A stretch of 64,000 nt of DNA from a bacterium. GTDB taxonomy: Bacteria; SZUA-182; DTGQ01. Position numbers and translations under genes: made by a program. The notes below the pieces were generated by a model that was given only the letters and a program-made list of their open reading frames with translations, did no database searches and had not been told where the DNA came from. Of the stretch, positions 17,914 through 51,238 are shown piece after piece. Within the stretch, counting starts at the first letter, position 1; every line of letters starts with the position of its first letter. The stretch is taken from the NCBI GenBank assembly GCA_023512255.1, contig JAILZY010000010.1, positions 4,693-68,692 on the forward strand, written 5' to 3'.

Positions 17914-18189
17914 AACGTTAGCCCCTTTGCATTAAGTAAGAATGTAATAGGTAATTGGTGGATTTCGCGTCTTTCCCAGTTTTCTTGATTTAAGAAAAGC
18001 AAATTGGATGCCAGGATTTTTGAGAGATCAAAAGAGGATGGTTTCCTATATAAGTCTTTGAAATATAATATTAATAACTCTTAACGCCAGATCTTAAGAT
18101 CAGGTGAAATTTCGCACAACTCTGACCAAATGTTTATCAATTCGCTCAATCATCTATATTACACACTACTAACAGGTCTTTTCGCTAAT

Positions 18190-24518: not shown

Positions 24519-24607
24519 CTTTCGATCCCCTCTCTTCCATAAGCACTCTCTCCCAACCAAGGTTAAATATTGTTTATCACTCGAACCTAACATTAACAAA
24601 CCACTTT

Positions 24608-24761: not shown

Positions 24762-25844
24762 TTATTTAAGATTTGTATCCTTAATGATATAAATCTGATT
24801 GACTTCCTGATCAGTCAGGTAAATGGTGTCATCACGGCCAATGAATATTCCAGTTGGCATCTTGAAATATATTTTGCCCTCTTTTCCATCCAGCCATTTG
24901 ATTGCACCAATAAATTTTCCATCCGGCCCAAATACCTGGATACACTTCAGTAGAAGATCGGTTACATAAGCCCGGCCTCGACGGTCGACACCGACTCCTG
25001 TCAGCCGAGAGAACTGACCAGCTCTTTCCCCGCTTTCACCTCCAATCTGAAAAAGCTCAGCTCCATCCGGCTGAAAAACCCGAACCCGGGCGCACATACC
25101 TTCAGGAACGAAGATCCGATTCTGATCATCAAAACAGACTATCCCAGGCGTACAAAACATACCCTGTTCCTTGCCTTTAAAATAGCGTAAAAATTTGCCA
25201 TGCAAGTCATAAATCCAGATATGGCCGTTTGAGGCATCACTGACATAAAGCTGATTACTCTTTTTATCAATGGCAATACAGCCGGGCGAGGCGTTTTGAT
25301 ATTTGTCATCTGGGGATAGAGCTGATTTAGAGGAAAATTCTTCTACAAACTCACCTCGAGGGGTAAAAACCAGGATTTTTTCCCGCTTGACATCACAGAT
25401 GTATACTTTGTCTTGGCTGTCTATGGCAATGCTGAACGGCTGGAGAAACTGCCCTGGCCCTTTTCCTTCCTTGCCGAATTTGGATAAGAATTTACCATCA
25501 CGGCTATAAATCAATACCTCGGAGGGGATATTTTTTAGGACATAGAGATCTCCTTGGGAATTCTGGACCATATGAATTATAATGCCGCTGCTTTTGCCGC
25601 CCACCGCGGCAGATGGTCCGGAATCGCCCATGGTCCCGATCAGCTTAACCGTCCTGTTTTCAACCTCCTGCTCCACGGTCTGCTCATCGGTGCGGTCGCT
25701 TGCTTTTTGTTTAGTCGCTTGCTCGCCGGCTACAGCCTGCTCTTTGGCTTCAGCCTTGGCCAGCGTAGGCCGTGGAGCAAGCAAAAAGTGGAGCAGCAGA
25801 CCACTCAGCAGGAAAATCCATAACATGGATGAAGATTTTTTCAT
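24762..25844 (-). CDS. Secreted NHL-repeat beta-propeller protein (module 1)
   Basis: A signal peptide (hydrophobic core LWIFLLSGLLLHFLLA, cleavage near TLAKA) is followed by a charged Gln/Glu/Lys linker of about 40 residues. A propeller of about six NHL blades (about 75-355) then follows, with units such as GPGQFLQPFSIAIDSQDKVY, FLRYFKGKEQGMF and GQFSRLTGVGVDRRG. NHL propellers bind proteins or ligands and are not enzymes by themselves. Genes of this type are found beside multihaem cytochromes in metal-reducing bacteria such as Geobacter. Its own sigma-54-type promoter lies about 190 bases upstream. It is homologous to the gene at 28326-29336. Confidence 0.88.
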   Translation of the reverse strand: MKKSSSMLWIFLLSGLLLHFLLAPRPTLAKAEAKEQAVAGEQATKQKASDRTDEQTVEQEVENRTVKLIGTMGDSGPSAAVGGKSSGIIIHMVQNSQGDLYVLKNIPSEVLIYSRDGKFLSKFGKEGKGPGQFLQPFSIAIDSQDKVYICDVKREKILVFTPRGEFVEEFSSKSALSPDDKYQNASPGCIAIDKKSNQLYVSDASNGHIWIYDLHGKFLRYFKGKEQGMFCTPGIVCFDDQNRIFVPEGMCARVRVFQPDGAELFQIGGESGERAGQFSRLTGVGVDRRGRAYVTDLLLKCIQVFGPDGKFIGAIKWLDGKEGKIYFKMPTGIFIGRDDTIYLTDQEVNQIYIIKDTNLK

Positions 25845-26308: not shown

Positions 26309-28339
26309 CTAAAGCATCCCATAATGGCAATTAAAACATAATCCGCTGCCATGCTCATACACTTGGCCTTGAAAGCTTCCACCAATGGCATTATCAATAA
26401 TTAAAAGTTTTCCGGCATTTAATCTTCCGCTTTGACTGATACCATCATGCCTAGTTACGGCTGAATGAACGCTGTGGCAGGACTGACAGGTGATATCTCC
26501 CTCCAGGGTATCATTTGATGTTTGCCCGCCAAACCCACCACTGAAGCCTGAGATAACATAGCCTTGAAAATTATCGCCAAATTGAACCGATTTTTGCTTC
26601 AGAGGCCTGTTGACCGGATGGGAGGATTCGCACTCGGCAGATGCGGGTTTGCTGGTATGGCAGGCGATGCACAGGGCAGAGCCAGAATAGTCCCGGGTTG
26701 CGTTCGGCTCTCGAAGGTAAGCTGTGCGCCGATCAATAAATTTCTCGGAGGAGCGGATAGGGGGCGAGTCCTGCCGGTGGACATTGTGGCAGCTTCCGCA
26801 CCAGATTCTCCCTTTCTCGACTCCGTAATCATTCTGACACTTTTTTTCCCAACCATCGGAAACAACCTGTTTCCCATCCCCAAAAGGATTAATAATATTG
26901 ATATTTTTGGAAGGCACTACATTAAACCGATGAGAGAAGTAATGGTCCTCTACATTATCGAGCAGCAGAGCATTTTTTTCATTGTCCGTATCTTTTGCTC
27001 CTACGATTTCGGCTCGTGAGTGGCAGCCGTAGCAGGCATCCTCGTAATCACGACTATCCTGATCCTGCAATTTGTCAGCCCACTGAAGATTTACTGGTGC
27101 AATCCGCATGATCACATCCACCGAAGCAGAGGAATTTTCTTGGTTAGCTCGCTCATCATCTGTCTGATATAGAGCCGCAGGATCATTCGGTGATTTATGG
27201 ATAGAGTGGCAGAATAGGCACTCATTTTCATTCTGGGGCGGCCCGATCGTGCGCCCGACCTGATAATGTCCGCGGCCTGGAGTGGATTCAAGATCACCGA
27301 CCGCTTTATCAGAATGGCAGGCAGCACAAAAGGCCCCGGGATGAGCCGGATCGTAGTTGCTGATAATTTGCGGGTTGAGATACTTATCATTAGTGCCCTG
27401 ATGAGGATCATGGCAGGATTTGCAATACAGCTCTCCCTGAGGGGAGAGTGGGCCAGATGCGGTCTTCTGATGTCCTTCGACTGTAGCCTCAGCTCCTTTC
27501 CCCATCGGGTGGTGCTCATACCGGACCAGGCAATCATCGCCATTCAGCGGAGCGTTTAGCGCCCCCTCACCCCCCCCTTGAGCTCGATGGCAGCCGTAGC
27601 AGCTAGCTGCATAAGAGTCAGCCACAGGATCGGAAAATTCGCTAACATTAGGGACTGCTCTGAAGGGGATGCTGCTTTCAGTCTTAATGATCTTTTTCCC
27701 TCGATTGGGGGAATAATGCGGAGTATGACAGTCAAAGCAGCCATCTTTGGTTCCATGCCCCTTGGCCTTACCCTGAACCAGGGGAGCGTGGCATTGGATA
27801 CAAAATTCATAATGCTTTTGTGAGGTAGTTTTGATTAAACCAGGCACTGACTCCCGCAGGTAATCGCCCCCCTCAAAGGGATCGGTATGAGGATTATGAC
27901 AGCTTCCACAATAAAATCCATCTCCTCCCTCCTTAGGCCGCAGGGGAAAGGTTTCACCCCACTCTTTGCGGGTTACCGCCGGACCATTAATTAGAGCATT
28001 GGCTCCCATGGGATGATCATTACCTTCCTCAATGAATATATAATCCCTAGCTCCGAAAAGATGAGTACCATGACAGGTGCTGCACAGTCTTTTTGTTCCG
28101 GTAAACTCACCACTTGCCGCCCTAGCCCACAGAAGGTCATCAGCGGCATGGTGAGGCAGATGACAGGCTCCGCACGGATCTTCCGGTACACACCAGGCAT
28201 GAGGCCCATTCAGCGCCCAGGCGAACTGAAAGCCGAAGACGACCAGCAGGAGGGAAATAATAAGGCCTATTATCCCTTTCGAAATACCTATACCGATTAT
28301 CCACCGGAGAGCGATTCTCAGAAAACTACTTCGATACAT
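26309..28339 (-). CDS. Secreted multihaem c-type cytochrome, 14 haem motifs
   Basis: Fourteen CXXCH motifs are present, from PCGACH near the N-terminus to LCFNCH at the very end. Many are in paired form (YCGSCHNPH, WCGSCHNVH). I prefer ATG 28339 (MYRSSFLRIAL); an ATG at 28369 is also in frame but overlaps the NHL gene more. The signal peptide has the core IIGLIISLLLVVFGF and probable cleavage after FAWA. Overall layout, motif spacing and segments such as ACYGCHSRAEIVG and DVIMRIAPVNLQW match the cytochrome at 22-24.5 kb (MCYGCHGNSNIVG, DALMRVPAKELNW), so the two are paralogues. Its start overlaps the preceding NHL gene by 14 bases, showing translational coupling. Confidence 0.93.
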   Translation of the reverse strand: MYRSSFLRIALRWIIGIGISKGIIGLIISLLLVVFGFQFAWALNGPHAWCVPEDPCGACHLPHHAADDLLWARAASGEFTGTKRLCSTCHGTHLFGARDYIFIEEGNDHPMGANALINGPAVTRKEWGETFPLRPKEGGDGFYCGSCHNPHTDPFEGGDYLRESVPGLIKTTSQKHYEFCIQCHAPLVQGKAKGHGTKDGCFDCHTPHYSPNRGKKIIKTESSIPFRAVPNVSEFSDPVADSYAASCYGCHRAQGGGEGALNAPLNGDDCLVRYEHHPMGKGAEATVEGHQKTASGPLSPQGELYCKSCHDPHQGTNDKYLNPQIISNYDPAHPGAFCAACHSDKAVGDLESTPGRGHYQVGRTIGPPQNENECLFCHSIHKSPNDPAALYQTDDERANQENSSASVDVIMRIAPVNLQWADKLQDQDSRDYEDACYGCHSRAEIVGAKDTDNEKNALLLDNVEDHYFSHRFNVVPSKNINIINPFGDGKQVVSDGWEKKCQNDYGVEKGRIWCGSCHNVHRQDSPPIRSSEKFIDRRTAYLREPNATRDYSGSALCIACHTSKPASAECESSHPVNRPLKQKSVQFGDNFQGYVISGFSGGFGGQTSNDTLEGDITCQSCHSVHSAVTRHDGISQSGRLNAGKLLIIDNAIGGSFQGQVYEHGSGLCFNCHYGML

Positions 28340-29336
28340 CGAATACTGAAACAACTTTTGTCTCCGCATTAACTACATAGATTTTATTGTTTGTCCAGGC
28401 CAGACCGAGAGGCTGGCTGAACAGCCTGGGATTGCTCGACTGGCGCATAGAGTCAAGATATTCCCCCTTCTGGTTGAATACCTGGACCGAATTTGAGATA
28501 AAATCAGAAACATAAATCCGATCTCTGGCATCAATAGCCAGGCCATAGGGTCGAATAAATTCTCCCTCTTTGGTGCCGTTTTTGCCAAAAGCATAGCGAA
28601 ATTTAAAATCAGGACTAAAAGACTGGACCCTGAAATTACCCGCATCAACGACATAAATATTTCCTCGGCTATCGAAAGCAATATGAGCCGGACCGCTCAA
28701 TCCTCCGTCTCCTCCGCCGGCAGTGCCGAAGGTGGCTTTTAATTCTCCAGAGAGTGTGTAGACTCCGATCTGGTGATTGCAGGCATCAGAGATATATAGC
28801 CGATTATCGAATGGATTGTAAGCGATAAAAGGGGCACAAAGATCGCGGCCTTTCTCTGGCTGGTGAAGGGGAAATTGCCCTTTAAGTTCGCCATCTGAGC
28901 TATAAATCAAAATCTTGTCTGTGGCCAGATCCGATACGTACACCCGATCCTGCCTGTCAATCGCTATCCCTGACGGCTCGCTCAGGTTTACTCCTTTGCC
29001 TTTTCCCTTGCCCTGCTTGGTCGGCTCTTGGCCAAAAGCAAACAGTAGCCGACCCGAAGGATCAAATACCCGAATCTCATTGGTCAGCGAGCAGACAACA
29101 AAGAGGCGACCTTTGGAATCAAGGGCCAGCGCCGTGGGCTTGCCAGATGCTGGGCCTTGAAAACCAAGCTGAATCTGCCGCTCAAGCTGATAAAAGCTTT
29201 CTTTGCCGGCAGGTTGGCCAGCAGCCAGAGCTGAGCTGCTCAAGAGGAAGAGGGGAAAAAGCAGCGTCGCCAAGACAGATGCCAGAAAACCTTTTGGATT
29301 CAAAATCGGCTGGACAGTCATTATAATAGTCATCAT
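28326..29336 (-). CDS. Secreted NHL-repeat beta-propeller protein (module 2)
   Basis: The protein has a signal peptide (core FLASVLATLLFPLFLLSSS, cleavage near ALAAG). About six NHL blades follow, with units such as GVNLSEPSGIAIDRQDRVY, GLSGPAHIAFDSRGNIY and GEFIRPYGLAIDARDRIY. The start may be ATG 29336 or ATG 29321 (MTVQPILN); neither has a strong ribosome site. It is the first gene of the NHL-cytochrome pair and has a sigma-54-type promoter about 150 bases upstream. It is paralogous to the NHL gene at 24762-25844 but lacks its charged linker. Confidence 0.88.
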   Translation of the reverse strand: MMTIIMTVQPILNPKGFLASVLATLLFPLFLLSSSALAAGQPAGKESFYQLERQIQLGFQGPASGKPTALALDSKGRLFVVCSLTNEIRVFDPSGRLLFAFGQEPTKQGKGKGKGVNLSEPSGIAIDRQDRVYVSDLATDKILIYSSDGELKGQFPLHQPEKGRDLCAPFIAYNPFDNRLYISDACNHQIGVYTLSGELKATFGTAGGGDGGLSGPAHIAFDSRGNIYVVDAGNFRVQSFSPDFKFRYAFGKNGTKEGEFIRPYGLAIDARDRIYVSDFISNSVQVFNQKGEYLDSMRQSSNPRLFSQPLGLAWTNNKIYVVNAETKVVSVFDVSK

Positions 29337-29726: not shown

Positions 29727-31280
29727 TTAGCTTGGCTCGTCAAGGCCATATCGTTTGATTTTCTTGTGTAAACCCTGCCTGGTAATCCCAAGCAAAGAGG
29801 CTGCTTTGTTCTTATTGCCCTGGGCTTCTTGAAGCGCTTTTCGGATAAGTCTAATTTCCAAAGCCTTAACCTGCTCAGGGAGTGAATAATCAACGGCATC
29901 TTTCTCATGATCTTGCAGACTCTTGCTGAAATTTTGCAGCTCCCGTGAGCATTTGTCAATGGTAATTCGCTCCCCCTCAGGAGTTAGCGCAACCAGATGT
30001 TCTACCTCCCGCAGCAATTGGCGAACATTGCCCGGCCATGAATACTCCTCAAACAGCCGCAAGACTTCAGGCGCAAAGCCAGCTACCCTTTTTTTGAATC
30101 TACGGCTTACTCGATCCAGAAAGGCTAAGGCCATAGTTACAATATCCTCCCGCCGCTCCCTGAGAGGCGGAATGTGGATCTCGACTGAAAACAGACGGAA
30201 GAAAAGATCCTCCCTGAAACGCCCCAAGGCCACCTCCTGGCGCAGGTCCTTGTTGGTTGAGCTGATGATCCGCAGATTATAGCGCATTACCTTGTTGCTT
30301 CCCAGCCGACAGCCTTCCCCCTCCTGAATGGCCCGCAAGAACTTAGGCTGAATAGCCAGAGGCATATCAGCTACCTCATCCAGAAACAGTGTTCCGCCGT
30401 CAGCCTCCTCAAATCGACCCTTGCGGCTGGTAACCGCACCGGTGAACGCCCCTTTTTCATAGCCAAAGAATTCGCTTTCCATAAGATTTTCGAGAATCGA
30501 GGCACAGTTTACAGCCACAAAGGGTTTGTCGCGGCGGTCACTGCCTTCATGGATCATTCGAGCAATAAGCTCCTTGCCGGTCCCGTGCTCGCCGTGGATG
30601 AAGACATTGACCGGAGTTTTGCTGATCATCCGCACCTCATCCATGATATTTCTCATAATCGGGCTTTCGACAATAAAGGGTATATCCCGAAAATAATTTC
30701 TTTCGAACCACTCGACCTCGCAGTTTAACTGGCTAGAGATTTGCAGAATCTCTCGGCTTAAAAGGATGCCCTCGATAGAGGTTGCAAGGAAAGAGGCGAT
30801 TTCCTGCAATTGCTCCACATCTTCTGCGCTAAATCGCCCATCTCCCTTCTTGTTTAGTACCTCGATGGCTCCGATTACACCACGGCCAGTCAGACTTCTG
30901 ATCGGAGCACAGATTAGACTGTGGGTAACAAAGCCGGTCTTGGCATCAATTTCAGTATGGAAACCGTGTCGCTTGTCCAGGTCATGCTCTACAATGCATT
31001 GATCGGTAGAGATAACCTTGCCGACAACACTTTCATCTTTGGGAGGCTCAATCTTCATTCCTTCTAGACCAGTGCCGAACATCGACCAGATTGTCCCCTT
31101 TTGTGCATCAGCCACAAAAACAGTGCAGCGTTCGGCATCCATAATTTTGGGCAGAATGGCTACGTAAAATTTCAGCAGGGCCTCATAATCGCCGACTGTC
31201 CAGGATTGGGTAACCTGCTCCAGACGAAATCTAAGGTTGGCAAGTCGCTGATGAATCATTTCAGGTTCATTGGCAGCCAC
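29727..31280 (-). CDS. GAF-domain sigma-54-dependent transcriptional activator
   Basis: This is an enhancer-binding protein of 517 residues. An N-terminal GAF sensor (about 25-180) is followed by the AAA+ domain with Walker A GEHGTGKE (His replaces the usual Ser), the sigma-54 contact loop GAFTGA (about 278), Walker [13 protein letters not shown] and the arginine-finger region [11 protein letters not shown] Fis-type HTH ([16 protein letters not shown]) ends the protein. GAF activators sense small ligands or redox state; the ligand here is unknown. Three sigma-54-type promoters lie on either side of the gene, so it probably controls the flanking cytochrome modules and the giant surface protein. 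Confidence 0.93.
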
Positions 31281-31696: not shown

Positions 31697-31712
31697 TGGC
31701 ATGTGGTTTGCA
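31697..31712 (+). promoter_or_regulatory. Sigma-54 (-24/-12) promoter for the small membrane protein / giant protein
   Basis: TGGCATGTGGTTTGCA matches TGGCACG-N4-TTGCW with correct spacing. A second AGTTTGCATC follows 22-28 bases downstream without a -24 element. The predicted start near 31724 gives a leader of about 90 bases to the 41-residue ORF. It is divergent from the activator gene. Confidence 0.72.
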
Positions 31713-31812: not shown

Positions 31813-31938
31813 ATGGCAAGCTCATTAATTAATATGGCAGGTATTATTTCCGCAGAGCAGGTTATTTTCTTGGTAATGATGATCAGCCTTTCCTTTATCC
31901 TAGTTAAACGAAGAAAATTCCCCGTACTGATCAAGTAG
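31813..31938 (+). CDS. 41-residue single-pass membrane protein
   Basis: ATG 31813 follows a strong ribosome site (AAGGAGG, about 11 bases upstream). The product has a short polar N-terminus, one hydrophobic helix (about residues 16-31, IFLVMMISLSFILV) and a basic end (KRRKFPVLIK). That is a typical small membrane protein with its C-terminus in the cytoplasm. It lies between a sigma-54-type promoter and the giant surface protein gene, which suggests an accessory role in export or anchoring. I recognise no family. Confidence 0.6.
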   Translation: MASSLINMAGIISAEQVIFLVMMISLSFILVKRRKFPVLIK

Positions 31939-32281: not shown

Positions 32282-35200
32282 ATGTCTAAGGTAAAAGACA
32301 ACTGGTGGGCCAAGTTAGTAAGCTCATCCTGTCTTGTGCTCTTTACCATAATAGCCCTTAGTGTTGGGTGTATGGGGATTTGGGTTAGCAAGACAGAGGC
32401 AGGAGGGGTAAACCTTTCGCTGAGTGGACAGGCGATTTATCCTCAGCCCGTGGATCAGGAAGTGCCGGAAATTTACGGGACCAAGGTCGTCTGGATGCAG
32501 CAGGGGAATGATTATTATTACAAAGTATTCCTTGGCGATCTTGAGACCGGCACCAGCAGGCAGCTTGGGAGCAGCCCGGCTGCGGAAAAGTATCCGGCCA
32601 TCTGGGAGAATAAGGTTATCTGGATGGATTATCGAAGCATCATGGATGATCCAACAGTAGAAAACAAATATGCATACATTTTCAAATACTATGATATGTA
32701 TGGATATGACCTGGAGAAAAATCAGGAATTTCCCATTTGTACCAATCCAGAATGGCAGGGATATGGAGATATCCAGAAGGATCGGGTTGTGTATGCTGAT
32801 ATGCGTACCGGCAGCCCGGATATCTTCCTCTATGACCTGAGAAGCAGTCAGGAATACGCCATATGTATTCATCCCGCCTGGCAGGGAAATCCGGTCATTT
32901 ATGATAATTATGTCATCTGGATGGACGAGCGCTCAGGCAATTATGATATCTACGGCCTTGATCTAGCGACCGGTAAGGAATTTCCCATTTGCACCGCGGC
33001 TGATAACCAGGCTTATCCAGCTATCAGCGGCACAAAAGTGGTCTGGCAAGACAAAAGAAGTGGCAACGACGATATCTACCTCTATGATCTGGCCACAAAA
33101 CAGGAAATCGCTATCTGTACCCATCCAGGAAAGCAGCAGGTGCCTGATATTTGCGGCAATATCATTGTCTGGCAGGATGACCGTAATGGGAATTGGGACA
33201 TCTATGGTTATGATCTGACTACCTATCAGGAATTTCAGATTACTAACCAGAGCGGCGATGAGACCTTCCCTGCCATATCTGGTGATCGGATCGTCTGGGT
33301 GGATTCAAGGAGCGGCCACAAAAATATTTATGCGGCTACTTTGCCGTCTGGCTTTGCTCCACAAGCCAATAATCAGGTCAGAAATCGGGAGTCAATCACT
33401 GCTGCTAGCTCACTGGGTGACTCTATCACGGCCATGTCATTTGCTGCTAGCTCACTGGCTAGCTCTATCGCCACCACGATTGCTCCGAATATCGAGATCT
33501 TAATACCCGAATTAATACCTGAAATCACCATACCCGCGATCACCTCTCCCATCATCGAAGTGCCAAAAACCGGCCCCTCAATTATAGGCTACGAAAATAG
33601 CGGTTGTAAAAAAGAGATTACCTCTACCACCATCCGCGCTCCTGAGGAAGAGAAATTTACCTATAAGTATCAAGACAATATCCTTTATCTTTTTCATGAG
33701 AACGCCTCTTACAATTGCTGTATTGAGGAAATCGCCATCACTATGGAGGTGGTAGGAAATATCATCAATATTTATGAAGATGAAAGGCTTGAGGGAGGCG
33801 GCTGTCGATGTCTCTGCACCTATGATATAACCACTAAGATCGGCTGTCTTGAGCCTGGCACCTATGAGGTGAAATTCTTCAACAAGCAAACCGGCAAATT
33901 GCTCGGCGTGATCAAAGAGGTGGTTATTCCCCCGATTCCCTGTCTTCTTTCTGCCGCCGCACCGGTACAAAAATGCTGTCCACTTCCCTGCACCGATCCC
34001 ATAAACCGCTGCTGTCCGTATGCCTCTGCTGTGCCAGAGCAAAGATGTGTGGTCTGTCCGGTGCCTTGGTGGCCATGTCCATGCAGCTATTTCGATGATA
34101 TGGAGCAAGATACTTGGACATTCAGCCGAGGGATCAGCTCTTCTTCGTCCATCTCTACGCCGCTGCCACCTCCCCCAATTCAAGAGATTGATTATTCAAC
34201 TGCCCAATACGTTTCACCGAAAAGATCAATCTGGGCCTATGTAGCCAGCTATCTTGAGACCGCGACCGATGCCAGTATTACTGGAGCAGGATACCGCACC
34301 CTTGGGGAAGGAGCAGAGCTTGCTACCGCTTCCAGCACCTCAGCATCCCTAGCGGCAGCAGCCAATGCCAGGGTAAGTGCTTCTCGGTCGTTTGAGCTTT
34401 GCGGCTGTGAGAATCTCAAGCTGAAGCTTTCTTACCAGATCCGCTACTCCATAAGCAAAATTAATCAATATCTCTATCGCCGCGTCGCGGTTGAGGTGAT
34501 GGCTTATGATGCTGCTGGCAATCAGATGGGCAAGCGCACCTATGTCCTGTTTAGGAATCCTATCCAGGTATTGAGTCAGGAAGATATTGATATTGTGCTC
34601 CCTGCTCAGTCTGCATGGCAGACCCTGGCAAGATCCCTCCAAAAAGATATACCGATCAAATGGTGTGAGGCGAGAAAACTTCAGGTAATTTTAAAAGCCG
34701 AAGGATATTTCCCTGCTGGTCAGGGTGACTTTGTAGAAACATTCTGGGATGATCTGGCCATTGAGGGGCAAAACTGTAATATCATCCTGCCGTGCTGTCC
34801 GCTGGCTCAGGCTGAGGTTGGGGCGGCAGATGCCCTGTGGTGTCGGCCCTGTCCTGTGGCTACGACGACAGCAGCCAGCCAGGCTCTGTGGTGCTGGCCC
34901 TGCCCGGTGGCTTCTGTTGATGCGGCAAGTGCAGATGCTCTGTGGTGTCGGCCATGTCCCTATGAGATTCATATGCCAGATGGGACGATTAGGCGTTGCT
35001 GTCCTGTGGCTACGACGACAGCAGCCAACCAGGCTCTGTGGTGCTGGCCCTGCCCGATAGCGACTGGTGTTGAGGTCAATGTTCAGAGCTGGTGTTGTCC
35101 GCTGGCTAAGGCCGAGGTAGATACCCAGGTTTTGTGGTGTCGGCCCTGTCCTGTGGCCACTCAGCTTGATAATAACCTGATTCGCTGGTGCTGTCCGCTG

Positions 35201-38200
35201 GCCAAGGCTGAGGTGGATAGTCAGTCTTTGTGGTGCTGGCCCTGTCCGTATGTAGTGGAAAAGGATGGTCAGCTTACCCGCTGGTGTTGTCCTGTGGCTC
35301 AAAATGTAGACACGCAACTTTGGTGCAGGCCATGTCCTTATCCCAAGGCTACTGATAAGGAGCTTAATATATACTGCTGTCCTGTGGCTACGGCGACGGC
35401 GGCTGGCCAGGCAATGTGGTGTCGGCCTTGTCCTTTGGCTTCAGATGTAGCAGATGAGGCACTCAAGCTTTGGTGCTGTCCGCTGGCTCAGGCTGAGGTT
35501 GGGGCGGCAGATGCCCTGTGGTGTCGGCCATGCCCTGTGGCTACGACGACGGCAGCCGGCCAGGCTCTGTGGTGCTGGCCCTGCCCGGTGGCTTCTGTTG
35601 ATGCGGCAAGCGCAGATGCTCTGTGGTGTCGGCCATGTCCGGTTCCGATAACTCCGCTGCCTGACAATTGCCTAATTGGAACGGTTAAAGAAATTCAACA
35701 TCATGTCTCGGTCGGACGATCTGATCTAAAGGTAGTGGATGAATCGGGAAATATTAGGGAGATATCTGTACCGCTTACCCAGGCCGAAAATCTCAAGGTT
35801 GGCGATAAGGTTAAAGTTTGCATTGAGACGGATAAAAATGGCGAGATTATTTCAATCACCATTGAAAAGTACGATCCTAACGCACAGGTAGTGCCTCCAG
35901 CTCAGATTTGCTGTCCGCTGGCTCAGGCTGAGGTTGGGGCGGCAGATGCTCTGTGGTGTCGGCCATGCCCGATAGCTTCTGTTGATGCGGCGAGCGCAGA
36001 TGCCCTGTGGTGTCGGCCATGCCCTGTGGCTACGACGACGGCAGCCGGCCAGGCTCTGTGGTGCTGGCCTTGCCCGATAGCTTCTGTTGATGCGGCGAGT
36101 GCAGATGCCCTGTGGTGTCGGCCATGTCCCTATGAGATTCATATGCCAGATGGGACGATTAGGCGCTGCTGCCCTGTGGCTACGGCGACGGCAGCCAACC
36201 AGGCTCTGTGGTGCCGGCCTTGTCCTGTGGCTTATGTTGATGCGGCGAGCGCAGATGCCCTGTGGTGTCGGCCCTGTCCTGTGGCTACGACGACGGCAGA
36301 TGGCCAGGCCCTGTGGTGTCGGCCCTGTCCTGTGGCCACTCAGCTTGATAATAACCTGATTCGCTGGTGCTGTCCGCTGGCCAAGGCTGAGGTGGATAGT
36401 CAGTCTTTGTGGTGCTGGCCCTGTCCGTATGTAGTGGAAAAGGATGGTCAGCTTACCCGCTGGTGTTGTCCTGTGGCTCAAAATGTAGACACGCAACTTT
36501 GGTGCAGGCCATGTCCTTATCCCAAGGCTACTGATAAGGAGCTTAATATATACTGCTGTCCTGTGGCTACGGCGACGGCGGCTGGCCAGGCAATGTGGTG
36601 TCGGCCTTGTCCTTTGGCTTCAGATGTAGCAGATGAGGCACTCAAGCTTTGGTGCTGTCCGCTGGCTCAGGCTGAGGTTGGGGCGGCAGATGCTCTGTGG
36701 TGTCGGCCCTGTCCTGTGGCTACGACGACGGCAGCCGGCCAGGCTCTGTGGTGCTGGCCCTGCCCGATAGCTTCTGTTGATGCGGCAAGTACAGATGCCC
36801 TGTGGTGTCCGCCCTGCCCGGTGGCTACGACTACGGCAGCCGGCCAGGCTCTGTGGTGTCGGCCCTGCCCGGTGGCTTCTGTTGATGCGGCGAGCGCAGA
36901 TGCCCTGTGGTGTCGGCCCTGCCCTGTGGCTACGACGACGGCAGCCGGCCAGGCTCTGTGGTGCCAGCCAGGAGTAGTTACCGAATGTTTAGAGGAAACC
37001 TCAGGAGCCTTGGACATTGAAGGCGCTCAGGCAGATGTGGGTGATGAGGTCAAGATCAAGATTCGGATTCAGAATGCGCCCGGTGTGGTATCTTCCTTCG
37101 GCTTTGAGGTTATCTACAGGTCGGATATTTTAGAGTATCAAGGCTTTGAGCGCGGAAATCTCGTACTTTCCTTCCCCATGATTGATGTTAGCCCAAGCGG
37201 CCCAGACAGGCTCAAGGTGGGAGGATTATCAGCGAATCCTATACCGCAGGGAGCAAGTGGTTCGGTTGTGGTGCTAAAATTCAAGGTCATAGGTGGTGTG
37301 AAAGATGAATGTTATCCCTTGAGTCTGGAAAATCTGGTAGATGATCTAGTCAAATTCTCCAAAACTGGCGGCTGTCTATGCATCAAGGATACTGTACCAC
37401 CTCAGATTACCTGCCCGGGAGATAGGGTTATCGGCCAGATAAATAGCGATGGTACGCCTGCTGACGATCCTGAGGTAGTTGCCTTCCTCGCTGAGGCCAA
37501 AGCATGGGATGCAGTTGATGGTGAGGTTGCGGTTTCAGCCACCTTCCAATTTGATCAGACCAGTGGAGTTACCAGCACTAGTGAGCCTGTCCCTGGAGCT
37601 GAAATAATTATAGATGCAGACGATCAAGCCAAGATATTTTCTGGCAATCCTCTTATCCTTCCTCCTGGCCAGACCACAGTAATCTTTACCGCTAGAGACA
37701 AAGCTGGCAACAGCTCTTCCTGCACAGCTACGATCACCATTCAGCCAATGGTATGCGAGGAGGATGAGTCCGGGCAGCTCGATATTAAAGGCACGGAAGG
37801 CAGGATAGGAGAGGAAGTGAAGATTCCGATTCGGATTCAGAATGCGCCCGGTGCCATCTCTGCTCTTGGCTTTGAGGTAAGCTACAAACCCTCTGTCCTT
37901 GAGTATGTTGGGTTTGAGCGAGGAAGCCTGGCGGCCTCTTTCTCTGTCTTCGATGTCAACCCAATTGCCTCTGGCAGGCTCATTGTAGGTGGATACTCCA
38001 CCCGAGGTATCCCGCAGGGAGCAAGCGGCGATCTGCTTATCCTGAAGTTTAAGGTTAAGGATGGTATGGAAGGTGGATGCTATCCCTTGAAGCTGGATGG
38101 GCTGACGGATGATGTGGTTAACTTTACAGCCAGCCCGGGTTGCTTCTGTATCAAGAGCTGCAACGGCGATCAAAATGGAGATGGAGTTATTACTCCTGCT

Positions 38201-38407
38201 GATGCGCTCATAGTGTTCAAGTGTTACCTTGGATCAGGACCTTGCGGCGATTGCGCTGATGTTGATGGCAACGGCAGTGTTACTCCGGCTGATGCCCTGT
38301 GTCTGTTCAAGAAATACCTGGGTCAGCCTTCTTGTCTGGATAACCTTATTAAGCTTAATGCTCAAAATAAGGGAACCTTTGCCGTAAGTGGAAAATCAGA
38401 CGCCTAA
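32282..38407 (+). CDS. Giant secreted Cys/Trp repeat protein with propeller, two cohesin-like domains and dockerin
   Basis: I place the start at ATG 32282, which has AAAGGAG upstream; a GTG at 32228 is in frame. The 2041-residue precursor has a signal peptide (core LVLFTIIALSV). In order it has: a TolB/PD40-type propeller with repeats such as GNIIVWQDDRNGNWDIYGYD (about 40-360), a linker and a Cys-rich patch (about 560-605), a domain of about 220 residues of beta type, then the array (about 837-1564) of 26 WC(R/W/P)PCP and 13 CCP(L/V) units. An unrelated domain of about 75 residues interrupts the array (35660-35880). After it come a cohesin-like domain (37000-37385), a HYR-like domain (37386-37750), a second cohesin-like domain (37770-38155) and a type I dockerin with two EF-hand-like loops (38156-38335). 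It must be exported; dockerin-cohesin binding suggests assembly with partners or itself. The array's function is unknown. Confidence 0.85.
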   Translation: MSKVKDNWWAKLVSSSCLVLFTIIALSVGCMGIWVSKTEAGGVNLSLSGQAIYPQPVDQEVPEIYGTKVVWMQQGNDYYYKVFLGDLETGTSRQLGSSPAAEKYPAIWENKVIWMDYRSIMDDPTVENKYAYIFKYYDMYGYDLEKNQEFPICTNPEWQGYGDIQKDRVVYADMRTGSPDIFLYDLRSSQEYAICIHPAWQGNPVIYDNYVIWMDERSGNYDIYGLDLATGKEFPICTAADNQAYPAISGTKVVWQDKRSGNDDIYLYDLATKQEIAICTHPGKQQVPDICGNIIVWQDDRNGNWDIYGYDLTTYQEFQITNQSGDETFPAISGDRIVWVDSRSGHKNIYAATLPSGFAPQANNQVRNRESITAASSLGDSITAMSFAASSLASSIATTIAPNIEILIPELIPEITIPAITSPIIEVPKTGPSIIGYENSGCKKEITSTTIRAPEEEKFTYKYQDNILYLFHENASYNCCIEEIAITMEVVGNIINIYEDERLEGGGCRCLCTYDITTKIGCLEPGTYEVKFFNKQTGKLLGVIKEVVIPPIPCLLSAAAPVQKCCPLPCTDPINRCCPYASAVPEQRCVVCPVPWWPCPCSYFDDMEQDTWTFSRGISSSSSISTPLPPPPIQEIDYSTAQYVSPKRSIWAYVASYLETATDASITGAGYRTLGEGAELATASSTSASLAAAANARVSASRSFELCGCENLKLKLSYQIRYSISKINQYLYRRVAVEVMAYDAAGNQMGKRTYVLFRNPIQVLSQEDIDIVLPAQSAWQTLARSLQKDIPIKWCEARKLQVILKAEGYFPAGQGDFVETFWDDLAIEGQNCNIILPCCPLAQAEVGAADALWCRPCPVATTTAASQALWCWPCPVASVDAASADALWCRPCPYEIHMPDGTIRRCCPVATTTAANQALWCWPCPIATGVEVNVQSWCCPLAKAEVDTQVLWCRPCPVATQLDNNLIRWCCPLAKAEVDSQSLWCWPCPYVVEKDGQLTRWCCPVAQNVDTQLWCRPCPYPKATDKELNIYCCPVATATAAGQAMWCRPCPLASDVADEALKLWCCPLAQAEVGAADALWCRPCPVATTTAAGQALWCWPCPVASVDAASADALWCRPCPVPITPLPDNCLIGTVKEIQHHVSVGRSDLKVVDESGNIREISVPLTQAENLKVGDKVKVCIETDKNGEIISITIEKYDPNAQVVPPAQICCPLAQAEVGAADALWCRPCPIASVDAASADALWCRPCPVATTTAAGQALWCWPCPIASVDAASADALWCRPCPYEIHMPDGTIRRCCPVATATAANQALWCRPCPVAYVDAASADALWCRPCPVATTTADGQALWCRPCPVATQLDNNLIRWCCPLAKAEVDSQSLWCWPCPYVVEKDGQLTRWCCPVAQNVDTQLWCRPCPYPKATDKELNIYCCPVATATAAGQAMWCRPCPLASDVADEALKLWCCPLAQAEVGAADALWCRPCPVATTTAAGQALWCWPCPIASVDAASTDALWCPPCPVATTTAAGQALWCRPCPVASVDAASADALWCRPCPVATTTAAGQALWCQPGVVTECLEETSGALDIEGAQADVGDEVKIKIRIQNAPGVVSSFGFEVIYRSDILEYQGFERGNLVLSFPMIDVSPSGPDRLKVGGLSANPIPQGASGSVVVLKFKVIGGVKDECYPLSLENLVDDLVKFSKTGGCLCIKDTVPPQITCPGDRVIGQINSDGTPADDPEVVAFLAEAKAWDAVDGEVAVSATFQFDQTSGVTSTSEPVPGAEIIIDADDQAKIFSGNPLILPPGQTTVIFTARDKAGNSSSCTATITIQPMVCEEDESGQLDIKGTEGRIGEEVKIPIRIQNAPGAISALGFEVSYKPSVLEYVGFERGSLAASFSVFDVNPIASGRLIVGGYSTRGIPQGASGDLLILKFKVKDGMEGGCYPLKLDGLTDDVVNFTASPGCFCIKSCNGDQNGDGVITPADALIVFKCYLGSGPCGDCADVDGNGSVTPADALCLFKKYLGQPSCLDNLIKLNAQNKGTFAVSGKSDA
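35133..35514 (+). repeat. 382-bp direct repeat within the array, copy 1
   Basis: By line-by-line reading this stretch is identical to 36312-36693 (offset 1179). The first difference at the right edge is C at 35515 against T at 36694. It covers the units carrying ATQLDNNLIR, YVVEKDGQLTR and YPKATDKELNIY. Identity over 382 bases points to very recent duplication or gene conversion. Confidence 0.85.
36312..36693 (+). repeat. 382-bp direct repeat within the array, copy 2
   Basis: This is the second copy of the 35133-35514 segment, in the same reading frame and orientation. The 1179-base offset is a multiple of three, so recombination between the copies would delete or add 393 codons without a frameshift. 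Confidence 0.85.
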
Positions 38408-38620: not shown

Positions 38621-39025
38621 ATGATCATCCAGACAGAGGTATCTTGGCAAAATTTTGATTTACCCTCTCTTCTGCAAAGGTTCGAGCAGAAGGAGAGCTA
38701 TCTGACGGGAAGTATCATTATCCATCGGGGGAAGGTAAAATCTCCGGGCAAGAAAGTAACTCATCTCTCTTCGGTCATGCTGAAAGAGCGGCTTGAGGGA
38801 TCTGGCCAACAAGAATTAGCCAAAATCGCAGATGAGGCCGCGGCGAAATTTCCTCACCTTCAGCAGATTTATATCAACCATAGATTGGGAGAGGCCAAAG
38901 TGGGCGATGATATTCTCCTGCTTATTGTTTCGGCTGCGGACCGCAGAAGCGCTTTTTCCGCTGCCCAATGGATAGTCGATGAAATAAAGAAAGAAAAGAT
39001 CATTACCTTGACCGAGATAGCCTGA
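38621..39025 (+). CDS. MoaE-like protein lacking the usual C-terminal lysine motif
   Basis: The sequence resembles the large subunit of molybdopterin synthase: GKKVTHLSSVMLKERL, then QELAKIADEAAAKFPHLQQIYINHRLGEAKVGDDILLLIVSAADRR in pieces, then AFSAAQWIVDEIKKE. In MoaE that helix is followed by a Pro-x-Trp-Lys-(Lys/Arg)-Glu motif with a catalytic lysine. Here the end is KIITLTEIA, so the motif is missing, and the protein is a little short (134 residues). It may have another role or low activity. No moaD, moaA or moaC is nearby. It is followed after 22 bases by a response regulator gene. A weak GAGGAAG ribosome site precedes the ATG. Confidence 0.7.
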   Translation: MIIQTEVSWQNFDLPSLLQRFEQKESYLTGSIIIHRGKVKSPGKKVTHLSSVMLKERLEGSGQQELAKIADEAAAKFPHLQQIYINHRLGEAKVGDDILLLIVSAADRRSAFSAAQWIVDEIKKEKIITLTEIA

Positions 39026-39047
39026 AAAAGCGTGGAGAGATGAAGAC

Positions 39048-39983
39048 ATGGAACAGAAAAGGGACTGTCCCAAAACCAAAATACTCATGGTGGATGATGA
39101 GCCTACGATTGTAAGCATCTACCAGCACTTATACCAAGAAAATCTGTTCCCTTGGTTTGATTCGAGAATCACCGTATCAACAGCTAATTCAGGAGATCGG
39201 GCTTTAGATCTTCTTCAGAGAGAGCGGTTTGATTTACTGGTTACTGATTTTAACCATCCCGGGCCAAGCGGCATCGAGTTTATCGGTGCAGTCAAAAAGA
39301 TATGCCCTGAGCTACCCATTATTGTCTGCTCTGGACTAAACAGCGTAGGCGCTCGGATTAAAGAGTTATTCTCTGCCGGGGTGAAGGATTTTCTCTCAAA
39401 GCCTTTTCATATCTCCGAGCTTAGTCAGGCAATTTACCGCGTTCTAATCGAGGATAAGACAGGCTCATTCTATATAAGGCAATGTATGGCTAGCCTCTGC
39501 GGTCATATCTCTTTTCTGCTGGCACCGAAGGCTAAATTGGAATGGGGTCTGATACGGCTCAGCAGACAGCCGGATTCGCTCAAGATTGAAGATTGTAGTG
39601 AGGCGCTGATACTGGGGTATAAAATTTCACCTCCGCCATATTTGGCTAAGGCGGCGGAAGTTATCGGCGATTTTCCCCTAGAGCGGTTTATTTCAGCAAC
39701 CCTAGAGTGTATTCAAAGGCAAGATGTGGTAGCTTTGGATTTTCCCCCTGTTCAGATCGTTAACAAAGATGACCATCAGGCCATAACAACCATGAATCTT
39801 TCTACCTTGGCTTGCATTCCCCCTCCTCCTCAATTATCAAAGATAGATTGCATTCATCTTTTCCCTCACTCTTTTGATTGTTCGCTGCCGGCGAACTGGA
39901 GCAATATTCTGAAAGGGGTAAAAAAAGAGCTCTCTTCCTACTTTCACCCTATTTATGGCCTCACTTATGGCCTCAGCGCATAA
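39048..39983 (+). CDS. Response regulator with an unrecognised C-terminal domain
   Basis: An N-terminal receiver (about 10-135) has the acidic pair in ILMVDDEPT, the phosphoacceptor Asp in LLVTDFNHPGPSG (about 62) and the Lys in DFLSKPFHISEL. The Met-Pro usually after the Asp is replaced by Asn-His-Pro. The remaining 170 residues contain no HTH, GGDEF, EAL or kinase motif I recognise. They include a proline-rich patch (CIPPPPQLS). The C-terminal codons overlap the start region of the sulfatase-TPR gene by 29 bases. Confidence 0.82.
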   Translation: MEQKRDCPKTKILMVDDEPTIVSIYQHLYQENLFPWFDSRITVSTANSGDRALDLLQRERFDLLVTDFNHPGPSGIEFIGAVKKICPELPIIVCSGLNSVGARIKELFSAGVKDFLSKPFHISELSQAIYRVLIEDKTGSFYIRQCMASLCGHISFLLAPKAKLEWGLIRLSRQPDSLKIEDCSEALILGYKISPPPYLAKAAEVIGDFPLERFISATLECIQRQDVVALDFPPVQIVNKDDHQAITTMNLSTLACIPPPPQLSKIDCIHLFPHSFDCSLPANWSNILKGVKKELSSYFHPIYGLTYGLSA

Positions 39984-42900
39984 AAAAATCATGCCCGAAA
40001 AAAATTCCCCATTCCTCTTATGGTTTTCCTTACTCTTCATCTGCCTCTTCATCTTCTTTCTCCTTTGCTGTCCAGCCCAGGCAGAGAAGCAGCCTTTGGG
40101 CAATGTGCTGCTGATCACCATTGATACCCTGCGGGCAGACCACCTTGGCTGCTTTGGATATCGGGTTATTCAAACCCCTAATATTGATTCCCTGGCTAGG
40201 CAGGGAGTGCTATTTCAGCAGACCTTTACTCCGGTTCCGATTACTCTTCCCTCACATGCTTCCATTTTTACCGGCCTCTATCCCTACCAGCACGGAGTCT
40301 TGGATAACGGCTCGTTTTCCCTGAAAAAAGAAGCTATCACCCTGGCCGAGATTCTGAAGAATAGTGGATATAAGACCGCAGCCTTTGTAGGGGCCTTTGT
40401 CCTTGATTCGATCTTTGGCCTGGATCAGGGATTTGACGATTACGATGACTATATGCCTAAGCAGGATGACCATACGGCTAAGCAGGATAAAGTGATGGCT
40501 ATTCACTTCGCCGAGCGACCGGCTAGCCAAGTAACCGAGAGAGCCATTTCCTGGCTCAGGAAGCAGCAGGTGGCAAAAGCCGCGCCTTGCCCCTTTTTCC
40601 TCTGGCTCCACTACTTTGAGCCTCATGCACCCTATGAGCCGCCTGAGCCATTTAAAAGCCGCTACAGCCACTCTGCCTATGATGGGGAAATAGCCGCGGT
40701 TGATCATTGGCTCGGTATCTTGGTGCAGGAATTGAAAAGGCTGGGGCTTTTTGACAAGATCCTCATTGTGGTTACGGCTGATCATGGAGAGGGGCTGGGG
40801 GAGCATCAGGAGAGCACTCACGGAAACTTTCTCTACGATTCCACGCTCAGGGTACCTCTTATTTTCAAGCTTCCGCAAAGCCGATTCTTTGGCCTTATCC
40901 CAAAGCGGATAAATTCCCTTACTAGAACTATAGATGTTATGCCGACCATTCTTGACCTGCTTGGACTCTCAGCCCATATCCCGCAAGGGATCGATGGCCA
41001 GAGTTTGCTGCCGCTCATTCAGGAGGAGAGAGCCTGGAGCCGAGGAGCCACAGGGTCGGAAGGAGGCAAAGATTTTGAAGATGTTAAGGGATTTGAAGAC
41101 CTTAGGGGAAAAGATTTAAAAGGAGACAAGGGGAGAGGAGATAAAAGAGATAGGAGAGGAGATAAAAGAGACAAAAGAAATGATAGCGATAAAGGAGATG
41201 ATGGCGCCGGGCGGCGATACCTTTTGTGCGAAACCTATTATCCTTTTTTTCACTATGGATGGAGCCCTGAATTTGGTTTGCGTACAGAGGAGTGGAAATA
41301 TATCGAGGCGCCAAAACCAGAGCTTTATTATCTGAAAGATGATCCGGGAGAGAGGGTTAATCTCTATGAGCCAAAGCATCCTGTGGTTTCAGAGCTTCGC
41401 CTTCGGATGGAGAGGGGGCGAGTTGAGAGGGACCGAGATTTTAGGAAAATTTCACCCTCTGCTTCCTCCGCTCCTCCTAAACTCACTCAGTTGATGAGAG
41501 AGCAGCTTGCAAGCCTTGGTTATCTTCAGGTCAATAGCTTGTCTTCTTTCGGGAAATTGGCCAGACTGCCGGATGTCAAGGACAGGGTAGCTGTGCTTCA
41601 AGGTATTGATGAGGCAGTTTCGGCCATAAGCCAAGGTAGGTATCAGGAGGCGCTCGGGAAGCTAACCTCAATCCTTCGCTCTGATTCGGAAAATATTTCC
41701 GCGCTCCTCTATCAGGCCTGCCTATATCGCAAGCTGGGCCAGTATCCTTTGGCCATAGCCGCTTTTAGGAAAATTCTGGCCATAGATCCCACTCATATTG
41801 ATATTCATAATCACTTGGGCACTATTTACCATGAGATGCACGATCCCAATCAGGCTATCCGAGAATTTCTCCAGGAGATCAAACTCCACCCCAATCATGT
41901 CGAAGCTCATTATAATCTGGCCTTAGAGTATGCTGATCAGGGGAAAATCAAAAAAGCCCTGGAAAGTGTGCTCTCGGTGCTTCGGCTAGATCAGACCTAT
42001 GCCGAGGGGTATAATCTGCGGGGCAAGCTCAGGATCCGAGAGGGAAATATAGTTGGAGCAGAGGAGGATTTTCAAAAGGCGATTGCTCTCTTTCCTGAAT
42101 GTGCTGATGCTCATAATAATCTTGGTGTTCTCTACGGCCAGCAGGGAAAGCTGGCTCAGGCAATCAGAGAGCTGACTGTGGCCAAAAGCTTTGATCCTCA
42201 GAACGCGGCTATTTTGGTTAACCTAGCTAATGTCTGTCTTCAGCAAAACCAATTTAGCTTAGCTGAGGAGCATCTTCAGCAGGCGCTTGTCTTGCAGCCG
42301 GCCTCAATTGAGGCAAAAGAGGCGCTCGGCCGCGTTTTCCTTCAGGCGGGGCGCACCGAAAAGGCTAGGGAGTTGCTAGAGCAGGTAGTGAAAACCTGTC
42401 CGCATCGGGCTAAAAGCAGGCTATTGCTTGGCCAGGTTTATACAATCCAGGGTTTGGGGCCAAATGCCCGAAAAGAATTGGAAGAGGCTATTCGACTCGA
42501 TCCTCAAGATGAGCAGGCCTATGTTAAGCTGGCTAATCTGCTATTTCAGCAGGGGGATGTGTCCGCGGCCCTCAGCAGATGGGAAAAGGCCATTAGCCTG
42601 AATCCCAAAAATCTTGAGGCTTACCATAACCTTGGGGTTGCCTTATACCAGCAGGGAAAGATGAGCGAGGCGGTTAAGAGCTGGGAGAGTGCTCTTCGGC
42701 TAGATCCCAATTCTGCCGCGGTACGTCTTCATCTTGGCTCGGCTAGGTTTCAGCAGGGGAAGATCCAAGCGGCTATTTCAGAGTGGAAAAAGGTGTTAGC
42801 GATTGAGCCTGGGAACTTTGAGGCCCTATCAAACCTTGGCTCGGCCTATATTAGGCAGGGAGATGTGGAAGAGGCGAAGCGATATTGGCAAAAAGCGGTA

Positions 42901-43089
42901 GAGATCAGACCGCAGAGTGCGGATCTACACTTCAATTTAGCTATCCTCTTTTTGCAGCAGGGAATGATGGCTGAAGGAGAAAGCGAACTTATCAAAGTGC
43001 TCAAGATCAATCCCCACTATCCCAAGGCCCCTGAGCTGCTGGAGAGGGCCAGAGCAGGGAGGAGGGCCAGAGGGGGGACTTGGCAGTGA
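39955..43089 (+). CDS. Membrane-anchored sulfatase/phosphatase-fold protein with TPR array
   Basis: An N-terminal hydrophobic segment (LLWFSLLFICLFIFFLLCC) acts as signal or anchor. An alkaline phosphatase/sulfatase-fold domain (about 45-430) follows, with metal ligands in LLITIDTLRADHLG and VTADHGEGLGEH. The nucleophile position reads TLPSHAS, so Thr stands where formylglycine sulfatases have Cys or Ser. This resembles LtaS-type phosphoglycerol transferases or phosphatases more than sulfatases. A Lys/Asp/Arg/Gly-rich insertion (about 360-420) interrupts the domain. About 14 TPRs (about 535-1035) follow. The start could be ATG 39955, 39967 or 39991 (MPEKNSPF); none has a clear ribosome site. 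The gene overlaps neighbours at both ends. Confidence 0.85.
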   Translation: MASLMASAHKKIMPEKNSPFLLWFSLLFICLFIFFLLCCPAQAEKQPLGNVLLITIDTLRADHLGCFGYRVIQTPNIDSLARQGVLFQQTFTPVPITLPSHASIFTGLYPYQHGVLDNGSFSLKKEAITLAEILKNSGYKTAAFVGAFVLDSIFGLDQGFDDYDDYMPKQDDHTAKQDKVMAIHFAERPASQVTERAISWLRKQQVAKAAPCPFFLWLHYFEPHAPYEPPEPFKSRYSHSAYDGEIAAVDHWLGILVQELKRLGLFDKILIVVTADHGEGLGEHQESTHGNFLYDSTLRVPLIFKLPQSRFFGLIPKRINSLTRTIDVMPTILDLLGLSAHIPQGIDGQSLLPLIQEERAWSRGATGSEGGKDFEDVKGFEDLRGKDLKGDKGRGDKRDRRGDKRDKRNDSDKGDDGAGRRYLLCETYYPFFHYGWSPEFGLRTEEWKYIEAPKPELYYLKDDPGERVNLYEPKHPVVSELRLRMERGRVERDRDFRKISPSASSAPPKLTQLMREQLASLGYLQVNSLSSFGKLARLPDVKDRVAVLQGIDEAVSAISQGRYQEALGKLTSILRSDSENISALLYQACLYRKLGQYPLAIAAFRKILAIDPTHIDIHNHLGTIYHEMHDPNQAIREFLQEIKLHPNHVEAHYNLALEYADQGKIKKALESVLSVLRLDQTYAEGYNLRGKLRIREGNIVGAEEDFQKAIALFPECADAHNNLGVLYGQQGKLAQAIRELTVAKSFDPQNAAILVNLANVCLQQNQFSLAEEHLQQALVLQPASIEAKEALGRVFLQAGRTEKARELLEQVVKTCPHRAKSRLLLGQVYTIQGLGPNARKELEEAIRLDPQDEQAYVKLANLLFQQGDVSAALSRWEKAISLNPKNLEAYHNLGVALYQQGKMSEAVKSWESALRLDPNSAAVRLHLGSARFQQGKIQAAISEWKKVLAIEPGNFEALSNLGSAYIRQGDVEEAKRYWQKAVEIRPQSADLHFNLAILFLQQGMMAEGESELIKVLKINPHYPKAPELLERARAGRRARGGTWQ

Positions 43090-50691: not shown

Positions 50692-51237
50692 TCACCGGTC
50701 CGACTTAATTTTTTGTTTGCTCAATTCTACGAGCATTTGCATGATGGTATCAAGTCTTTGGTTTACTTGTCCAATCTGAGTATCGATCTTCTGATTTAGT
50801 TGTCCAATCTGGGTATCGATTTTCTGGTTTAATTGTCCAATCTGAGTATCGATCTTCTGGTTTAGTTGTCCAATCTGAGTATCGATTTTCTGTTCAAGAG
50901 CATCTACTTTTTGATCTACCCTATCAATCTTTTGGTTTACTTGCCCTATGTAAGTATCAATCTTTTGGTTTACTTGTTCTATCTGAGTTTCAACTTTCTG
51001 CTCAAGAGCATCTACTTTTTGATCTATTCTCTGGTTTATCTGATCTACTCTCTGATTTATCTGGCTGATTTCTTGCCTGACTTGTCCAATTTGAGTATTG
51101 AGATATCGAAAGTCGGCCTCTTGCTTGTTTTTGAGCTCTGCTATATCCCTTTTAATTTCTGCCGTCCGCTCCTCTATGGCCTCATAGATTATTTCCAGCG
51201 ATATCTTCTTGATTATCCTGTTAGCAAGCTCTTTCAT
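50692..51237 (-). CDS. Coiled-coil protein with 11-residue repeats
   Basis: I place the start at ATG 51237 (MKELANRIIKK); the open frame extends 31 codons upstream into the HTH gene. The 181-residue protein is almost all helix. From about residue 50 it consists of repeats of the type QIGQLNQKIDT, an 11-residue (hendecad) pattern, with variants VDALEQKIDTQ. The repeats are visible in DNA as 33-bp units at 50760-50890. It has no signal peptide or membrane segment. A right-handed or parallel coiled coil is likely. The function is unknown. Confidence 0.65.
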   Translation of the reverse strand: MKELANRIIKKISLEIIYEAIEERTAEIKRDIAELKNKQEADFRYLNTQIGQVRQEISQINQRVDQINQRIDQKVDALEQKVETQIEQVNQKIDTYIGQVNQKIDRVDQKVDALEQKIDTQIGQLNQKIDTQIGQLNQKIDTQIGQLNQKIDTQIGQVNQRLDTIMQMLVELSKQKIKSDR

Positions 51238-51238
51238 T

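Follow-up and report, generated by a model that had tools for sequence, protein, structure and literature searches.

Results

A giant secreted protein with a cysteine-pair array

The window analysed here is a 64,000-nucleotide stretch of contig JAILZY010000010.1 from a bacterium of the lineage SZUA-182; DTGQ01 (assembly GCA_023512255.1), and its element of interest is a plus-strand gene (32282–38407, +) for a giant secreted protein of 2041 residues that carries a long array of cysteine pairs. The frame is under selection between species and is open to 38407 from either GTG 32228 or ATG 32282; the latter start was preferred because its AGGAG-ATG context is kept in the orthologue of a second species of the same genus (genome G001). 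The array occupies positions 34790–36961 (+; aa 837–1560), as defined by motif counts, cysteine spacing and comparison with shuffled sequences. An initial reading of the DNA letters and frames alone (the sequence-only reading) had counted about 39 dicysteine units, 26 WC(R/W/P)PCP and 13 CCP, and these counts proved exact: the WCxPCP units comprise 18 WCRPCP, 7 WCWPCP and 1 WCPPCP, and the 723-aa array holds 80 cysteines and 40 tryptophans. Shuffles of the array composition gave a mean of 0.008 WCxPCP (maximum 1) and 0.94 CCP (maximum 6), and the motif density of the array is far above chance. Over its whole length the protein contains 125 cysteines, 26 WCxPCP and 15 CCP motifs, the two additional CCP motifs lying upstream of the array, and no CXXCH haem motif, as against 14 in each of the neighbouring cytochromes. 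A pattern search at the DNA level found no occurrence of WCxPCP in the 3.83 Mb genome outside the giant gene.

Measurement of Cys-to-Cys distances showed that the repeat unit consists of a cysteine pair, C-x(0 or 2)-C (CC or CxPC), followed by a loop. Across the three species in which the array was found, 83 of the 117 loops between pairs have a length of 13 residues, and the loop consensus is P-[V/L/Y/F]-A-x-x-x-[D/V]-x-[G/S/N]-x-x-L-[W/Y]. This corrects the description in regular 15–18-residue steps given from the sequence alone, the constant element being this loop. Loop lengths are mainly odd (11, 13 or 15), as if a hairpin had gained or lost one cross-strand pair, with turn-prone residues mid-loop and beta-prone residues at either end. 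In the relatives the two kinds of pair alternate almost strictly, with 32 xCxPCP and 31 CCP in G001 and nine of each in G004, a genome of the same order; the 26:13 ratio of the window protein is due to runs of WCxPCP. The dominance of WCxPCP is therefore specific to the window species and is not a general feature of the repeat.

The array is interrupted by a non-repeat domain of about 90 aa (35642–35908, +; aa 1121–1209), which is kept in the G001 orthologue with 77% identity and a ratio of non-synonymous to synonymous substitution rates (dN/dS) of 0.13. At the array end the last pair keeps its first cysteine only (WCQPG in the window, WCHPL in G001 and ICRPYP in G004), the second having been replaced by G, L and Y, respectively, and the other array boundaries are flanked by single cysteine residues.

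Conservation of the array and searches for relatives

The G001 orthologue (2280 aa) lies at the same locus and carries a 297-aa block in about three copies, while G004 has a single array block located at a contig end. When the arrays of G001 and G004 were compared, nine unit pairs could be matched one-to-one in order at 54% identity; most loop lengths agreed as well, and the motif cysteines and prolines were invariant across the aligned core. The dN/dS value was approximately 0.07 between the window and G001 and ranged from 0.07 to 0.17 between species; older internal copies gave 0.08–0.26. The newest duplicate blocks of G001 are 99% identical, with a synonymous divergence (dS) of 0.005, and are too young for selection to be estimated. 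This ordered, unit-by-unit conservation and the low dN/dS show that the array is not low-complexity noise, nor a repeat left to drift.

The array had been thought to belong to no described family, and this was borne out by comparison with Pfam (scanned to E ≤ 1) and NCBIfam, which gave no family match, and by a profile search of the PDB, which gave chance matches only. DUF2290 and a Cas9 hairpin were considered as identities and dismissed, their matches being below cut-off. A profile search of 386 genomes matched three, all from one order, and no relative was found in phage, plasmid and viral collections, where a Paenibacillus plasmid match turned out to be an unrelated repeat. Scanning the wider genome contigs with the pattern returned, among the matches listed, single chance matches only, and a literature search for cysteine-rich repeats in connection with cohesin and extracellular electron transfer found no paper. 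The array therefore appears to be an undescribed cysteine-pair repeat, confined in all searches made to a single order of a phylum with few sampled genomes.

Two known folds share motifs with it. The WCGPC active site of thioredoxin has the same short WC-x-P-C motif, a resemblance pointed out in the sequence-only reading with the proviso that no thioredoxin fold was present; sequence searches likewise found no such fold, and half of the units in the relatives are CC. Granulins, which are growth-factor modules of animals, are built of stacked, disulfide-linked beta-hairpins with CC motifs, and resemble the array in their CCP motifs and in the short, hairpin-sized loops between cysteine pairs. 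The array nevertheless gave no match to the granulin family PF00396 at E ≤ 1, and its spacing differs, with 13-residue loops and alternating CC and CxPC.

Domain organisation of the host protein

While the array was correctly recognised from the sequence alone, the beta-propeller, two cohesins, HYR domain and dockerin of the same protein were missed. In order, the chain comprises a putative signal peptide, a beta-propeller, unassigned domains, the array with its inserted domain, a cohesin, a HYR domain, a second cohesin and a dockerin. Inspection of the N terminus agrees with the earlier proposal of secretion, in that it resembles a signal peptide (32282–32404, +; aa 1–41), with a putative export signal ending in KTEA ahead of GG. 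The propeller repeats (32414–33352, +; aa ~45–357) match TIGR04275 (beta_prop_Msarc) over seven stretches (2.3e-81; 267 bits against a cut-off of 85), as well as PD40; likeness to the TIGR04275 propeller is limited to this N-terminal part. Cohesin PF00963 is matched in two stretches over threshold (75.5 bits against a gathering score of 24.1) and is also present in the G001 orthologue. The first cohesin was placed approximately, by internal similarity, at 37001–37370 (+), and the second lies at 37775–38098 (+; aa 1832–1939; 6.2e-21). Between them is the C-terminal part of a HYR-like domain (PF02494; 37658–37741, +; aa 1793–1820), and a type I dockerin (PF00404; 38165–38311, +; aa 1962–2010; 1e-6, 29.2 bits against 22.9) follows, both of its calcium loops (DxNxDGxIxxxD) being intact (DQNGDGVITPAD and DVDGNGSVTPAD). 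The giant protein is thus a predicted secreted surface protein of beta-propeller, two-cohesin and dockerin type.

Dockerins number 19 in G000 and 29 in G001, and the cohesin-dockerin tail is common to many proteins of this lineage; the giant protein is therefore part of a general surface assembly theme. In G004 (L022 1–1740), MopE-like metal motifs and a glycine-rich, GGISYPFGGI-type repeat take the place of this tail after the array.

Non-cellulosomal cohesin and dockerin proteins are described alongside many multihaem cytochromes in anaerobic methanotrophic (ANME) archaea and their sulfate-reducing partners (PMC9012536, PMC10553843). These resemble the window protein in being secreted, in combining cohesins with dockerins and in belonging to organisms rich in multihaem cytochromes. 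The sections of those papers drawn on here mention no cysteine-pair array; compared with the proteins described in them, the window protein has in addition a propeller and about 40 cysteine-pair units, and its gene lies in a cytochrome locus with sigma-54-type sites. Non-cellulosomal cohesin-dockerin surface proteins as such are known, and the repeat carried by this one is apparently new. A cellulosomal scaffoldin of CipA type likewise has several cohesins and a dockerin in one chain, whereas the giant protein has two cohesins only and is mainly propeller and cysteine array; as the Pfam scan found no carbohydrate-binding module in it, we do not class it as a scaffoldin.

The cytochrome locus and its sigma-54-type sites

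Divergent from the giant gene lies a GAF-containing sigma-54 activator (29727–31280, −; PF00158, PF01590 and HTH_8), which is 88% identical to its counterpart at the G001 locus and has no close orthologue in G004. Beyond it, on the same strand, follow an NHL beta-propeller protein (28326–29336, −; PF01436), a multihaem cytochrome with 14 CXXCH motifs (26309–28369, −; PF09699 and others), a second NHL protein (24762–25844, −; domain match), a second multihaem cytochrome, also with 14 CXXCH motifs (22248–24599, −; domain matches and motif count), and a surface protein with Reg_prop and Big_5 domains that ends the module (18575–21934, −; domain matches). This minus-strand order is identical in G001, so that the co-location with multihaem cytochromes seen in the sequence-only reading is conserved in a second species. 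In G004 a set in the order NHL-NHL-cytochrome-NHL-cytochrome-Reg_prop/Big_5 was found on another contig, and it ends with the same architecture.

Sites of sigma-54 type (−24/−12), which had also been proposed from the sequence alone, were found to be both commoner than expected and conserved. Seven sites with at least 10/11 consensus positions are present in the window, against 1.5 expected and a maximum of 5 in 60 simulations; a narrower pattern, chosen post hoc, gave 5 against 0.23, and 7 against 1.5 is the fairer figure. One site precedes the giant gene (TGGCATGTGGTTTGCA, 31697–31712, +; 10/11 consensus, kept as TGGCATGCGGGTTGCA in the G001 orthologue), two precede the NHL genes (29506, −, 11/11, and 26050, −) and one precedes a response regulator gene. 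Those of the giant gene, the first NHL gene and the response regulator are also found in G001, and a comparable site precedes an NHL gene in G004. The response regulator in question (17512–17913) has its site at 18013 (−), the sequence of which, TGGCATCCAATTTGCT, is identical in G001. Between the promoter and the giant gene is a small open reading frame of 41 aa with one hydrophobic stretch (31813–31938, +), which the alignment shows to be kept in frame in G001, together with a sequence resembling a ribosome-binding site.

Downstream of the giant gene (38621–43089, +), both species keep genes for a MoaE-like protein, a response regulator and a sulfatase with a long TPR region fused to it. Elsewhere in the window, the protein encoded at 50692–51330 (−) has 33-bp repeats (QIDTQIGQ type) and appears to resemble a 169-aa protein directly 3' of the G001 giant gene (L021 6493–7002); it may have moved.

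Co-occurrence of the array with the cytochrome

Co-occurrence with NHL-cytochrome modules, which the sequence-only reading had proposed to look for, was examined in nine genomes of the phylum (G000–G008). Orthologues of the first cytochrome (26309–28369) were found only in G001 (78% identity) and G004 (57%). G002 and G003, although more closely related than G004, have cytochrome matches of only ~40% identity (paralogues), and no array either. The array and the cytochrome orthologue thus occur in the same three genomes and in none of the other six, the probability of such full agreement being 1 in 84 (0.012) for an association that involves nine genomes, was noticed post hoc and carries no phylogenetic correction. 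A putative link between the array protein and the cytochrome module is supported by this distribution, by synteny within the genus and by the sigma-54-type sites.

Paired loss of cysteines in the cohesin-dockerin tails

Among 28 cohesin-dockerin tails (window aa 1825–2018, nt 37754–38335; L219–L244), which are related to each other, cysteines have been lost in specific pairs: C1933/C1956 (phi 0.92; nine tails lost both and one lost one), C2007/C2018 (phi 0.90; six and one) and C1825/C1954 (phi 0.81; five and two). This pattern suggests disulfides C1933-C1956, C1825-C1954 and C2007-C2018 in the tails, and this lineage therefore probably forms surface disulfides.

Discussion

The conservation by unit of an apparently undescribed array, found in the same three genomes as the cytochrome set, suggests that the array is a surface stalk, held by cross-links and connected with extracellular electron transfer. 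We tentatively favour a model in which the array is a stalk of disulfide-closed loops in a secreted surface protein tied to the cytochrome module. The giant protein would probably be co-produced with the NHL/14-haem-cytochrome module under sigma-54 control. Each loop, usually of 13 residues, would probably be a beta-hairpin, which a disulfide from the second cysteine of one pair to the first of the next, C2(n)-C1(n+1), would close; the chain would then be a row of disulfide rings connected by CC links, with no spacer, or by CxPC links, with a two-residue spacer. The half-pairs at the array ends and the single boundary cysteines fit such cross-loop bonds better than bonds within pairs or redox cycling. 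About 40 of these short loops would build a long stalk between the N-terminal beta-propeller and a hub at the C terminus, made up of the two cohesins and the dockerin. Through this hub the protein would dock into the dockerin/cohesin surface network of the cell and hold surface components in place, plausibly with cytochromes among them and possibly in physical contact with it.

Several observations weigh against this model. AlphaFold2 was uninformative in both runs, reaching a predicted local distance difference test score (pLDDT) of 40.5 for 100 aa of array (nine window-only rows) and 29.4 for 214 aa (four rows); the hairpin model is therefore left without structural support, and confidence in the mechanism is modest. 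Alanine-rich loops such as PVATTTAAGQALW could be helical. Cysteine parity does not decide the pairing, because both schemes can use all array cysteines. In G004 the array and the cytochromes are on different contigs, and the array protein ends in MopE-like motifs instead of a cohesin-dockerin tail, which makes the array a module independent of its tail. The three-genome association carries the qualifications given above. Lastly, neither VKOR nor DsbB was found in any of the nine genomes, and all six genomes without the array have strong DsbA-like (Thioredoxin_4) proteins, whereas none was found in the three with it; these three gave weak partial DsbA matches only, and the match inspected, that in G000, carries CPFA at the position of CxxC. 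These results would favour thiols or metal. The pairs of the array may be oxidised, with the co-loss in the tails in favour and the missing enzymes against, and in that case oxidation would presumably follow a route other than the recognised VKOR/DsbB/DsbA.

A less probable though possible account is that the protein is an ordinary large adhesin or scaffold, in which the array serves as a disulfide-rich spacer functionally unconnected with the cytochromes and the neighbourhood is incidental. The 19–29 dockerins per genome in the genus, the unrelated genes also found at the locus (MoaE, sulfatase-TPR) and the lack of proof of linkage in G004 are in keeping with it; it sits poorly with the conserved synteny, with the sigma-54-type sites conserved to either side and with the finding of array and cytochrome in the same three genomes.

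It is unlikely, in our estimate, that neighbouring pairs (CxPC-x13-CC or CxPC-x13-CxPC) combine into tetrathiolate sites for Zn, Fe, Ni or Cu, or into Fe-S clusters, and so make the array a long metal-carrying extracellular polymer, possibly a conducting one, that acts together with the cytochromes. The C-x2-C-x13-C-(x2)-C spacing would allow thiolate knuckles, the failure to find known disulfide-forming enzymes in the array-bearing genomes and the restricted co-occurrence with a multihaem cytochrome agree with such a polymer, and the conductive fibres of cable bacteria, with their sulfur-ligated nickel (PMC8238962), are an earlier case of a conducting bacterial protein fibre that contains sulfur-ligated metal. 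What the array would share with these fibres, the idea of electron transport involving a protein polymer rich in sulfur, is pure analogy. Against metal binding, no profile matched a metal-site family, no metal-centre gene was seen adjoining the giant gene, the array-end half-pairs and single boundary cysteines fit cross-loop pairing better, and surface cysteines of the same proteins are lost pairwise, in the manner of disulfides. In its broader form, that of a metal- or redox-loaded surface thiolate polymer extending the reach of the adjacent 14-haem cytochromes as a non-haem part of extracellular electron transfer, the proposal is more doubtful still.

A redox-active dithiol polymer, in which each WCxPC would act like thioredoxin and cycle between dithiol and disulfide for electron storage or relay or as a surface oxidoreductase, is improbable: the WC-x-P-C motif matches the thioredoxin active site and strong DsbA-like proteins are missing from the array-bearing genomes yet present in six relatives, but no thioredoxin fold was matched in Pfam, NCBIfam or PDB sequence searches and about half of the units in the relatives are spacerless CC, equally conserved. 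The redox-active, Fe-S or metal polymer put forward in the sequence-only reading is not supported: the protein has no CXXCH, and the array-end pattern and the paired cysteine losses point to disulfides in a scaffolding role. Neutral repeat expansion or an assembly artefact can be set aside as highly improbable, since, in spite of the recent duplication evident from the near-identical internal copies in G001, the array is present in separate genomes of three species, its unit order is retained across the order and its dN/dS values are low between species and among older copies alike.

If the array is a disulfide stalk, the question arises of how these bacteria oxidise dozens of extracellular cysteines with no recognisable VKOR, DsbB or DsbA. 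If it is instead metal- or redox-active, it would constitute a new non-haem element of extracellular electron transfer.

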